Positions 29,861 through 32,587 of a DNA stretch of 64,000 nucleotides are shown piece by piece. The position numbers and the translations under genes were made by a program. The DNA lies in the NCBI RefSeq assembly GCF_022662105.1, contig NZ_JAKMCP010000001.1:310001-374000 (forward strand). The letters are read 5' to 3'. The notes beneath the pieces were generated by a model. The model searched no databases, was not told where the DNA came from, and saw only the letters and a list, made by a program, of their open reading frames with translations. The stretch's first letter is position 1. The number at the start of each line of letters is the position of its first letter. This DNA is from Aestuariivivens sediminis (GTDB lineage: Bacteria > Bacteroidota > Bacteroidia > Flavobacteriales > Flavobacteriaceae).

Positions 29861-31195
29861 ATGAGCAAATCTATTTCAGGCTTTTCAAAATTATCCAAAG
29901 CAAAAAAAATTGATTGGATTGTCACCACCTATTTTTCAAATTCCGAAGAAGCCAGAACCATCATAGAACAGTATTGGAATACCGATGCGAAAATCCAACA
30001 ACTCCATGACGAGTTTATTGAAAACACGATAACCAACTATTATTTGCCATTGGGTGTCGCTCCCAATTTTCTTATCAACGACAAGCTTTATACCATTCCC
30101 ATGGTCATTGAGGAAAGTTCGGTTGTAGCGGCCGCCAGCAAGGCGGCCAAGTTTTGGTTGGATCGTGGTGGATTCAAAACGAAAGTCCTTTCTACTACTA
30201 AAATTGGCCAGGTCCATTTTATATACCATGGCGACGTCCATAAACTTCGGGCATTTTTTAAGCATATTAAGCCACAACTGTTAAGTGATACGGCCTCCAT
30301 TACTAAAAATATGGCCGATCGCGGTGGGGGCATACTCGATATTGAATTGCGGGATAAGACCAAGGATAAAAAAGGATACTATCAACTGCACGTATCATTC
30401 GAAACCTTAAATGCGATGGGGGCCAATTTTATAAATTCCTGCCTGGAACAGTTTGCCAAAACCCTTAAGGATGGTGCAAAATCCTTCGAATTATTTTCTG
30501 ATGAAGAAAAGAAAATCGATATCGTCATGAGCATTCTTTCCAATTATGTGCCGGATTGCCTGGTTCGTGCCGAAGTGAGTTGTAAGGTTGAGGACCTGAC
30601 TGAAAGCGACCTTATTTCCGGAGAAGCCTTTGCCTATAAATTTATACAAGCCGTTAGTATTGCCGAGGTTGAACCCTATCGCGCGGTAACCCACAATAAA
30701 GGCATTATGAACGGGATCGATGCGGTTGTTTTGGCTACAGGAAATGATTTTAGGGCTGTTGAGGCGGGCGTGCATGCCTATGCCGCACGACATGGTCGTT
30801 ATCGCAGCTTAACCCATGCCAAGGTGGAAGATGGGATTTTCCATTTTTGGATAGAAATCCCTTTAGCACTTGGTACGGTAGGAGGCCTTACCAAATTACA
30901 CCCCCTCGTGAAATTAGCACTGGAACTTTTGCATCATCCTTCGGCCAAAGAGCTTATGCAGATCGTCGCCGTGGCCGGTTTGGCTCAAAATTTTGCAGCT
31001 TTGCGTTCCTTGACTACAACTGGCATTCAGAAAGGACATATGAAAATGCACCTCTTGAATATTTTAAATCAATGTGGTGCTAATGAAATGGAGAAACAAA
31101 CTTTAACCGAATATTTTAAATCCCATACAGTATCACACAGTGCTGTCTCGGAAGCTTTGCATCATTTAAGATCCGGGCCCGGAGTGTCAGGTTGA
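29861..31195 (+). CDS. Hydroxymethylglutaryl-CoA reductase, degradative-type class II
   Basis: 444 aa soluble enzyme interconverting HMG-CoA and mevalonate. Class II blocks: ENTITNYYLPLGVAPNFLIN (54-73), PMVIEESSVVAAASKAAK with the catalytic Glu, MGANFINS, NKGIMNGIDAVVLATGND with the catalytic Lys and Asp, LGTVGG, and GHMKMH near the C-terminus with the catalytic His. No membrane anchor. In Flavobacteriia this enzyme serves the mevalonate route to isoprenoids, consistent with the GHMP-kinase sequence immediately downstream. The original downstream start codon (31211) is 15 nt after this stop. Confidence 0.94.
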   Translation: MSKSISGFSKLSKAKKIDWIVTTYFSNSEEARTIIEQYWNTDAKIQQLHDEFIENTITNYYLPLGVAPNFLINDKLYTIPMVIEESSVVAAASKAAKFWLDRGGFKTKVLSTTKIGQVHFIYHGDVHKLRAFFKHIKPQLLSDTASITKNMADRGGGILDIELRDKTKDKKGYYQLHVSFETLNAMGANFINSCLEQFAKTLKDGAKSFELFSDEEKKIDIVMSILSNYVPDCLVRAEVSCKVEDLTESDLISGEAFAYKFIQAVSIAEVEPYRAVTHNKGIMNGIDAVVLATGNDFRAVEAGVHAYAARHGRYRSLTHAKVEDGIFHFWIEIPLALGTVGGLTKLHPLVKLALELLHHPSAKELMQIVAVAGLAQNFAALRSLTTTGIQKGHMKMHLLNILNQCGANEMEKQTLTEYFKSHTVSHSAVSEALHHLRSGPGVSG

Positions 31196-31210: not shown

Positions 31211-31288
31211 ATGAAGACCCGGTTAGGGAATATAAACGCAACTCAATTGAGGCTTCGACAATCCCGGCCTCCAAAAAAAATTAAATAG
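31211..31288 (+). other. 25-codon upstream ORF: stranded start of the GHMP kinase gene
   Basis: ATGAAGACC opens a short frame ending at TAG (31286-31288), 3 nt before the GIY-YIG start codon. Met-Lys-Thr is also the expected beginning of the kinase (K-T-Y-Y-S-N-G-K... resumes at 31667), and the spacing to the HMG-CoA reductase stop is 15 nt, typical of an operon partner. I read it as the original kinase start codon, cut off from the rest of its gene by the insertion at 31220-31666. It may be translated as a leader peptide. Confidence 0.6.
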
Positions 31289-31666
31289 ACCATGCCTAAA
31301 GGCTTTGTTTACATATTAGAATGTTCAGATGGCAGCTTTTATACCGGTAGAACGGTGGATTTGGGCAAACGACTAAGAGCACACCAAAGTGGCCGTGGTG
31401 CCAATCATACTAGAATAAGGCTTCCCTTGAGATTAGTTTATGTTGAAGCGTTCCAAACCATCGATGATGCCATTTACAGAAAAAAACAAATACAGGGCTG
31501 GAACAGGGCAGAAAAAATGACTTTGATAAAAGGTAAACGCAATGCGCTTCCAAAATGGTCGATGACCTATGGAGATAAAGCAGTTCCCAAGACTATGGCC
31601 GCTTCGAAGGCCTCAATACCCAATACCGTATCGAGTAATCTGGTATCTCAAACTCTCGAAGAGACC
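31220..31666 (+). mobile_element. Candidate GIY-YIG-encoding insertion within the GHMP kinase gene
   Basis: About 447 bp bounded on both sides by the same hexamer AAGACC (31214-31219 and 31667-31672), as a target duplication would leave. Inside are two inverted copies of a REP-like sequence: ATTGAGGCTTCGA (31246-31258) and TCGAAGGCCTCAAT (31604-31617), flanking the nuclease domain. Small palindromes lie near both ends (GAGGC/GCCTC 31249-31271; CTCT-CGA-AGAG 31653-31663). Removing the segment and one hexamer copy would restore ATG-AAG-ACC-TAT-TAC, a normal kinase start. The mechanism of insertion is inference. Confidence 0.6.
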
Positions 31667-32587
31667 AAGACCTATTACTCCAACGGTAAACTGCTGTTCA
31701 CGGGAGAATATGTTATTTTGGATGGTGCCAGGGCTTTGGCCCTTCCCACTTCATTAGGTCAATCCTTAACCGTTGCTCCTTTGGACGGGTCACGGCTGGT
31801 GTGGACCAGCCTGGATGACCAGGGTAAGGTATGGTATGAAGAGGGGTTCGACATTGAAAAACAAGGGTGGTCCTCTTCGCGCTCTGCGGGTCGGGATACG
31901 CACGGTATTGGACTGAGGCTCAGGGAAATTTTGGAAGCCGCCAGATCGCTTAATCCGCATTTTCTTAACGGCAGCCGGGGGTATCGGGTGACCACTCAAT
32001 TGGCTTTTCCCAAAGATTGGGGATTGGGGACCTCGTCCACCTTAATCAACAATATAGCACAATGGGCACATGTTGACCCCTATCGGCTCCTGGCACTTAC
32101 TTTTGGTGGCAGCGGATATGATATTGCGTGCGCACAGCACAACTACGCCTTGACCTATCAACTTAAAAACAAAGCCCCTATTGTCACAGCAGTAGACTTC
32201 AACCCGTCCTTTAAAGACCGGTTGTATTTTGTATACCTCAACAAAAAGCAAAATAGTCGTGAGGGCATTGCCCACTACAAAAAGGCGAAAACGACATCCC
32301 GGGACCTTATCAAAACCATTTCCAACATTACCGAAGCGATGGTCTGTTGCGCTTCGTTTAGCACCTTTCAGGATTTGATGCGGCAGCATGAAGCGATGAT
32401 TTCAAAAGCCATACAGCAAGTTCCTGTTAAAGTGCGGTTATTTCCAGATTTTAAAGGGGCCGTCAAAAGTTTAGGGGCCTGGGGTGGCGATTTTATTTTA
32501 GTGGCCTCAAAGGAGGATCCCGGACCCTATTTTAAGGGGAAGGGCTATCCTACGGTACTCCGCTATTCCGATTTAATATCGGTATAG
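31292..32587 (+). CDS. GIY-YIG nuclease domain fused to a GYDIA-type GHMP kinase
   Basis: 431 aa in one open frame. Residues 4-85 are a small GIY-YIG domain (VYILECSDGSFYTGRTVDLGKR, later Arg and the Glu-region YVEAFQTIDDAIYRKKQI), like the UPF0213/YhbQ group. Residues 86-125 are a Ser/Thr/Ala-rich linker. Residues 126-431 are a complete GHMP kinase: YYSNGKLLFTGEYVILDG, the ATP loop FPKDWGLGTSSTLINNIA and GGSGYDIACAQH, the motif after which the GYDIA family is named. It is placed after HMG-CoA reductase, so it probably acts in mevalonate metabolism. The two domains have no obvious functional link; the fusion looks like a product of insertion. Internal Met codons at 31562 and 31595 might yield the kinase alone. 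Confidence 0.9.
   Translation: MPKGFVYILECSDGSFYTGRTVDLGKRLRAHQSGRGANHTRIRLPLRLVYVEAFQTIDDAIYRKKQIQGWNRAEKMTLIKGKRNALPKWSMTYGDKAVPKTMAASKASIPNTVSSNLVSQTLEETKTYYSNGKLLFTGEYVILDGARALALPTSLGQSLTVAPLDGSRLVWTSLDDQGKVWYEEGFDIEKQGWSSSRSAGRDTHGIGLRLREILEAARSLNPHFLNGSRGYRVTTQLAFPKDWGLGTSSTLINNIAQWAHVDPYRLLALTFGGSGYDIACAQHNYALTYQLKNKAPIVTAVDFNPSFKDRLYFVYLNKKQNSREGIAHYKKAKTTSRDLIKTISNITEAMVCCASFSTFQDLMRQHEAMISKAIQQVPVKVRLFPDFKGAVKSLGAWGGDFILVASKEDPGPYFKGKGYPTVLRYSDLISV

Follow-up and report, generated by a model that had tools for sequence, protein, structure and literature searches.

How did a GIY-YIG nuclease domain come to stand in frame in front of a GHMP kinase, directly behind the gene for HMG-CoA reductase (HMGR)? 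The question is raised by a stretch of 64,000 nucleotides from Aestuariivivens sediminis (the window), in which a single open frame of 431 aa (31292-32587) encodes a GIY-YIG domain and a complete GYDIA-family GHMP kinase. A preliminary description of the locus recognized this frame correctly, as well as the end of HMGR at 31195 and the ATG-AAG-ACC at 31211 that opens a 25-codon frame ending at 31288 (Table). It proposed that a small GIY-YIG element had inserted after codon 3 of the kinase gene and had duplicated the 6-bp target AAGACC. Here, we suggest a different history. From the sequence comparisons, we consider it rather probable that the insert is the relic of a homing-like element, i.e. 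a UPF0213-type GIY-YIG gene with inverted REP-like palindromes, belonging to a lineage whose members occupy the space separating HMGR from the GYDIA kinase gene.

Table. Features of the HMGR-kinase locus, numbered by position in the window
Feature	Position	Strand	Evidence
HMG-CoA reductase gene (HMGR), upstream neighbour	29861..31195	+	PF00368 1.1e-94; TIGR00532 above cut-off
25-codon dead-end frame, begins ATGAAGACC	31211..31288	+	No Pfam match
Left AAGACC hexamer (duplication proposed in the preliminary description)	31214..31219	+	Hexamer sharing P 0.22, chance level
Decayed palindrome 5' of the GIY-YIG gene, TCGA..CTC orientation	31247..31273	+	21/27 matches to a relative's palindrome
Fused GIY-YIG/GYDIA kinase frame, 431 aa	31292..32587	+	ORF, Pfam, NCBIfam, AF2 model
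GIY-YIG nuclease domain, residues 1-88	31292..31555	+	PF01541; 1zg2 profile match; well folded in model
Codon of residue 64, Lys (predicted catalytic Glu elsewhere)	31481..31483	+	Alignment of copies
Linker with palindrome remnants	31556..31669	+	Low model confidence; alignment with relatives
Weak remnant of downstream palindrome	31596..31622	+	18/27 (background maximum 17); aligns with L038/L097 palindromes
Decayed palindrome at kinase border, GAG..TCGA orientation	31641..31667	+	22/27; aligns with intact L038/L097 palindromes
Right AAGACC hexamer, probably native kinase codons	31667..31672	+	G003 has AAAACC
GYDIA-family GHMP kinase domain	31670..32587	+	NF040656 at residues 127-429; Foldseek best 1kkh mevalonate kinase

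Both halves of the fusion are recognizable by domain. Pfam PF01541 places the GIY-YIG domain at residues 3-75 of the fused frame (E 1.9e-14), with a profile match to 1zg2, a UPF0213 protein. The kinase half matches the GYDIA kinase model NF040656 (NCBIfam) over its entire length (model positions 1-299 of 299; 415.8 bits versus a cut-off of 225) and resembles mevalonate kinases by profile as well as structure search. An AF2 model based on 20 fused homologues has a mean pLDDT of 82.7 and comprises two mostly confident domains; in the linker (residues 89-123), pLDDT is below 50. As a clue to the fusion itself, the structure search was uninformative, the 50 matches shown all being GHMP-type and mostly mevalonate kinases and galactokinases.

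The second AAGACC is indeed present at 31667. A reading of the two hexamers as a target-site duplication is not supported: six hexamers are common to the 96 nt between HMGR and the fused frame and to the 135 nt of the linker region, where shuffling predicts 3.8 (P 0.22). The + strand of the window has 17 copies of AAGACC in all, and the right one of the pair adjoins the decayed palindrome at 31641-31667, directly 3' of it. In the stretches read of the congener G002, which has the same insertion, an AAGACC-type repeat is absent, and by eye no target duplication was found in the HsdR insert described below or in close pairs. The borders of such inserts are palindromes. The proposal that an element entered the HMGR-kinase junction and that the gene survived as a fusion is supported; the 6-bp duplication after codon 3 is not. 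The start suggested for the original kinase gene is plausible on the right side because AAGACCTAT is similar to the sequence with which the kinase gene natively begins in the congener G003, where it is unfused (ATGAAAACCTAT). This resemblance and the AAGACC at both borders are what a recent transposition into the window genome with a 6-bp target duplication would account for; however, hexamer sharing is at chance level, and the recent timing is contradicted by the presence of the same fusion in G002 (62% identity over residues 1-430 in a search among 119 genomes) and in several other genera, an observation that the preliminary description itself had named as speaking against its proposal. We regard a recent transposition of this kind as hardly credible.

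What brackets the GIY-YIG gene are imperfect palindromes with the consensus GGTGSCTGAG-N-TCGAAGSCACC and the core GAG-N-TCGA. With a strict detector, 247 palindromes were found in 64,482 nt beside 118 GIY-YIG genes of the subfamily and 33 in 583,842 nt farther off in the same loci (shuffles, mean 0.1), corresponding to a density beside the genes that is ~68 times that of the rest of these loci; the palindrome and orphan counts are somewhat inflated because near-copies of one genome from two collections remain in the orphan set (e.g. L143/L173, L154/L178, L160/L177 and L138/L174). Palindromes lie upstream and downstream of the GIY-YIG gene in 17/20 and 18/20 fused loci, 10/14 and 9/14 adjacent loci, and 38/84 and 64/84 orphan loci, respectively. 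The nearest ones are mostly inverted (F in 47 of 65 upstream, R in 71 of 91 downstream), with F upstream and R downstream at 35 of the 118 genes and the opposite arrangement at 6. No palindrome was detected by the strict detector within 300 nt upstream of the kinase gene in any of the 47 empty loci. Under the strict rule, 21 of the 118 genes have no palindrome on either side, and the window gene is one of them. At the window locus, matching to the consensus identifies decayed palindromes with 21, 18 and 22 of 27 positions, the maximum being 17 in 479 other window tiles and also 17 in shuffles.

The suggestion that solitary GIY-YIG ORFs in Flavobacteriia are mobile finds support insofar as those of the window copy's subfamily look mobile. 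Other GIY-YIG ORFs in the window genome occur at six places: none of the six belongs to the same subfamily at E 1e-20, and five (all but L003) have no such palindrome in the stretch scanned. Duplicated GIY-YIG genes in G437 and Saonia were considered as a guide to the ends of the mobile unit; these are larger duplications and were not decisive. In Saonia flava (L143/L173), two GIY-YIG copies stand in tandem at a distance of ~512 bp, accompanied by additional short repeats. Contigs labelled Leptospiraceae, Anaerolineales and Kuenenia (L126, L144 and L134) contain closely similar GIY-YIG genes bracketed by palindromes, reflecting either transfer or mis-binning. In two loci (L009, L093), a palindrome supplies the HMGR stop codon (GGTGCCTGA).

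In many relatives, including some very close ones, the junction is tight and empty. In the congeners G001 and G003, for instance, the usual kinase gene follows HMGR after a few nt. Among 397 genomes of the family, with weaker kinase matches left out, at least seven genomes in six genera have the fusion. In a scan of named genomes, 80 loci were kept, 31 of which have both a GIY-YIG gene and the kinase; these include Wocania, Pontimicrobium, Winogradskyella, Flavivirga, Olleya and Bizionia, among others, as well as Polaribacter, Tenacibaculum, Lutibacter and Aestuariivivens insulae. After removal of repeats, the set comprised 34 occupied loci (20 with the fusion and 14 with an adjacent, unfused GIY-YIG gene) and 47 empty loci, the latter chosen via best kinase hits and not a random sample. 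Left out were repeats of other loci (L062-L091), rows considered to duplicate genomes already represented (L092, L095, L098, L102, L120 and L209), and GIY-YIG rows with fewer than 70 matched positions except three frame-broken ones. In the Winogradskyella-type genus, the full fusion was matched in 8 of 68 genomes. In Olleya, the junction is occupied in one of ten genomes, and the same 14-nt junction, with a TRATG stop/start overlap, is found in all of the other nine; the occupied species has an empty sister with ~92% nucleotide identity (blastn) and has kept the native ATGCAAACC behind the insert. For the Olleya pattern, one gain would be the simplest account. In Lutibacter oricola (L117), the GIY-YIG gene is downstream and not upstream of the kinase gene, and a metagenome-assembled genome labelled Chlorobiota (L092) contains the flavobacterial fusion with a 100% match to G281; its label is probably wrong.

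To follow this coming and going, we used quick IQ-TREE phylogenies with SH-aLRT support only. A tree of HMGR and kinase from 81 loci requires at least 17 changes of presence, nine of them forced by strong branches; presence is clustered on this tree, shuffled labels needing 26.1 changes and none of 500 shuffles being as low as 17. In a tree of 49 loci, mostly of the Winogradskyella-type genus and Olleya, there are at least 13 changes versus 13.8 in shuffles (182 of 500 as low), i.e. presence is ordered no better than shuffled labels. A single clade of at-locus GIY-YIG genes is not rejected (p-AU 0.63) in a test that left out L109, L111, L115 and the long or short rows L202, L204, L208 and L210, and the occupants of the HMGR-kinase junction may be one lineage. 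The GIY-YIG trees have 92 columns and few strong forks. Their main at-locus clade (SH-aLRT 94) encloses three divergent orphans, and the adjacent copies L109, L114 and L119 fall outside it. The GIY-YIG data reject the host topology (p-AU 3.6e-6 for DNA and 2.8e-4 for protein), and agreement between the GIY-YIG and host trees is far better than random. Because of this agreement and the clustering on the 81-locus tree, much of the inheritance is vertical.

One lateral tract stands out. Between L224 and L225, a pair of Winogradskyella species, identity is 0.74-0.84 in HMGR, 0.88-1.0 from approximately the HMGR stop through the GIY-YIG gene, the linker and ~225 nt of the kinase gene, and 0.56-0.86 in the remaining kinase gene. 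The difference amounts to ~20% for HMGR, 0-12% within the tract and nearly 30% for most of the kinase gene. For L224 and L226, it is 0.62-0.78 over most of the same kinase start, which is no more alike than the rest. Synonymous differences (pS) between L224 and L225 are 0.17 in the GIY-YIG gene, 0.58 in the kinase gene and 0.68 in HMGR, which is partial in L224 because the locus ends 485 nt upstream of the GIY-YIG gene. The tract fits with homing accompanied by co-conversion, as it would with ordinary recombination, which would give the same pattern. In 6 of 406 pairs, the GIY-YIG gene is younger than both neighbours (p<1e-4); these pairs all come from five related Winogradskyella loci. The reverse pattern was found in 1 of 406 pairs. 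The 29 rows of this test include L227/L100 and L228/L148, which have no synonymous difference and are probably the same genomes. The transfer signal appeared only with dense Winogradskyella sampling: among 31 intact occupied loci, no recent transfer was found at four-fold sites, which are saturated. In seven pairs of empty and occupied loci, there was no clear drop in identity beside the junction as a sign of co-conversion; the second 150-nt bin of the kinase gene is low in most of these pairs and is perhaps a variable region.

The kinase junction is not the only place in which the subfamily has become part of another gene. GIY-YIG domains are fused in frame, N-terminally and through palindrome-coded linkers, to HsdS (L168), RlaP (L124) and a ThiE-like protein (L164). 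In L189, GIY-YIG is N-terminal to RecQ with a masked stretch between the parts, and this frame is likely continuous. In L191 (G332:C1:166205-168916), the HsdR gene of a type I restriction system is interrupted in frame by a GIY-YIG gene; compared by eye with the unoccupied HsdR of G045, the insert has palindromes at both ends and has replaced nine codons, the arm of the right-hand palindrome being too short for the strict detector. Among the kinase fusions, linkers vary widely in length and sequence. Eight of the 20 have no ATG from GIY-YIG residue 89 to the kinase core, and seven of these eight have GTG or TTG.

The window copy itself has Y7 and Y17, i.e. the Tyr residues of the GIY and YIG motifs, and the central R27. 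Its residue 64 is Lys; all 116 other aligned copies with a letter at this position have Glu, which we read as the catalytic Glu from the motif description in the accessible part of PMC1564403. Three further conserved sites differ in the window copy, and its GIY-YIG branch length of 0.44 is approximately ten times the 0.041 of G002. The GIY-YIG dN/dS between the window copy and G002 is 0.11, with dS saturated, and this low value argues against a long period of pseudogene evolution. By its domain, the window copy is a member of the nuclease family, and it is predicted to be inactive as a nuclease. With Glu64 lost, other departures from the conserved sites and the palindromes decayed, it reads as a dead element that has been retained because it forms the N-terminal part of a kinase that is needed.

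The palindromes are also dispersed in genomes. Three core types (a, b and c) were counted in 80 genomes, 40 with a close GIY-YIG gene (GIY-positive) and 40 without one (GIY-negative), 20 of the latter being stated to have no match and the other 20 inferred from their absence among the matches listed. The median is 23.5 copies per GIY-positive and 2 per GIY-negative genome (p 1e-8), with p 1.6e-4 after subtracting 6 from each GIY-positive genome. The GIY-negative genomes G016, G009 and G042 are palindrome-rich (41, 37 and 28 copies), and all three have more distant GIY-YIG matches. In four of seven occupied genomes (G135, G257, G297 and G207), the junction has the same palindrome type that is abundant in the genome as a whole; for instance, G257 has 82 copies of type b and none of type a, and G135 has 39 of type a. 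This correspondence is not general, since there is no clear fit in G281, G250 and G002. In the window genome, types a and b add up to six cores, and type c is absent. Inverted core pairs 30-45 bp apart also occur away from the kinase locus (G135:C26:157182/157224, G047:C2:735542/735587 and G250:C1:354420/354453); we take these to resemble REPIN doublets.

The palindrome brackets, the occupied and empty alleles among close species, the one lateral tract and the fusions lacking ATG can be read from the sequences as they stand. We interpret the window insert as a worn-out mobile copy specialized to one site, because the same insert appears and disappears there from one relative to the next. In the mechanism that we envisage, the nuclease would cut the empty junction or a palindrome, and repair would then copy the element in with a short co-conversion of the 5' end of the kinase gene. 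In-frame fusion could then arise and survive because most palindrome frames are free of stops: of six consensus forms of the palindrome tried, five have five of six reading frames open and the other has three of six. In the window species, loss of the nuclease Glu and decay of the palindromes would have left a retained fusion in which the kinase half does the work. More tentatively, we think it quite possible that the small GIY-YIG nuclease propagates REP-like palindromes together with its own gene, that one lineage homes into the junction and rewrites the kinase N-terminus, and that many "solitary" GIY-YIG genes in Bacteroidota are such elements and form a distinct class of mobile element.

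Other histories have to be weighed against this homing-like origin. An old insertion could have been inherited vertically with many losses, homologous recombination giving the mosaics and the empty alleles and the nuclease having no part in the spread. The partial agreement of the GIY-YIG and host trees, the clustered presence on the 81-locus tree and the occupied Winogradskyella subgroup with empty junctions nearby fit with this history, and losses explain the pattern in this Winogradskyella subgroup as well as gains do. However, a single gain on the midpoint-rooted 81-locus tree amounts to 27 losses, none of which left a detectable palindrome in the 47 empty loci, and in Olleya the choice is between one gain and at least three losses to an identical 14-nt junction, so that we consider purely vertical descent rather unlikely. 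We see even less reason to expect that the palindromes are REPs moved by another enzyme, e.g. a RAYT, with the GIY-YIG gene as a passenger between two of them: the palindromes are tightly co-located with GIY-YIG genes and their counts are higher in GIY-positive genomes, even if they occur at many places beyond the GIY-YIG loci, in some cases as inverted doublets 30-45 bp apart, if some GIY-negative genomes are rich in them and if known GTAG REPs go with RAYTs in the accessible part of PMC3733652. Finally, the fusion might be a functional innovation in which GIY-YIG gives the kinase a regulatory or DNA-linked role. A GIY-YIG dN/dS of 0.10-0.24 in five fused pairs and fusion in 20 of the 34 occupied loci would be expected in that case; the widely varying linkers, the 14 unfused occupied loci, the unrelated fusion partners elsewhere and the absence of the predicted catalytic Glu from the window copy make such a role very improbable.

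If the homing-like origin is true, the junction provides a polymorphic site on the chromosome, empty in some and occupied in others of a set of very closely related species, at which GIY-YIG homing can be studied directly, and the palindrome-coded peptides VAERSRS, LRLRSATE and VPEALEGT at protein junctions in Bacteroidota are explained. The available part of the 2006 GIY-YIG survey (PMC1564403) leaves open whether further GIY-YIG members act as molecular parasites, a question on which our finding bears. We found no report of an association between GIY-YIG genes and palindromes in the open-access literature; the palindromes as such may well have been included in catalogues of REPs already, as the part of PMC12306157 consulted lists Flavobacterium species.

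The elements have features in common with several known systems. The best solved relative by profile is a UPF0213/Slx1-like protein (1zg2, BH0048) with the same domain, size and motifs; the copies described here differ in that they are mostly palindrome-bracketed and sometimes fused in frame to unrelated genes. Similarly, the GYDIA-family GHMP kinase model (NF040656) is matched as a whole, yet a GIY-YIG domain is added N-terminally. With free-standing GIY-YIG homing endonucleases, for which intronless homing is mentioned in PMC1564403 (in the part available), the elements share the GIY-YIG domain, occupied and empty alleles, degenerate copies and apparent signs of lateral spread with flanking co-conversion. 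By contrast, REP-like repeats at the ends and a location in a bacterial chromosomal operon set them apart; Pfam detected no further DNA-binding domain in the fusions scanned. The same part of PMC1564403 describes an HsdR of Methylococcus with a GIY-YIG insertion, as well as further fusions of GIY-YIG domains, compared to which the palindrome brackets and the recurrent polymorphic site are features of the elements described here.

A GIY-YIG gene together with dispersed palindromes is presumably also comparable to REPINs. As in REP/RAYT systems (REPtrons), an enzyme gene is flanked by imperfect palindromes that, in relatives, are also dispersed in the genome; the accessible sections of PMC3733652, which describe these systems, also report CGTC repeats for which no transposase is known, G. 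forsetii being among the species that have them. However, the bracketed enzyme here is a GIY-YIG protein and not a tyrosine HUH transposase, and the consensus lacks the GTAG end. Because the enzyme is not a tyrosine transposase, the element is not a strict REPtron; if our interpretation is true, GIY-YIG nucleases would join the tyrosine transposases as a second enzyme type associated with REP-like repeats.
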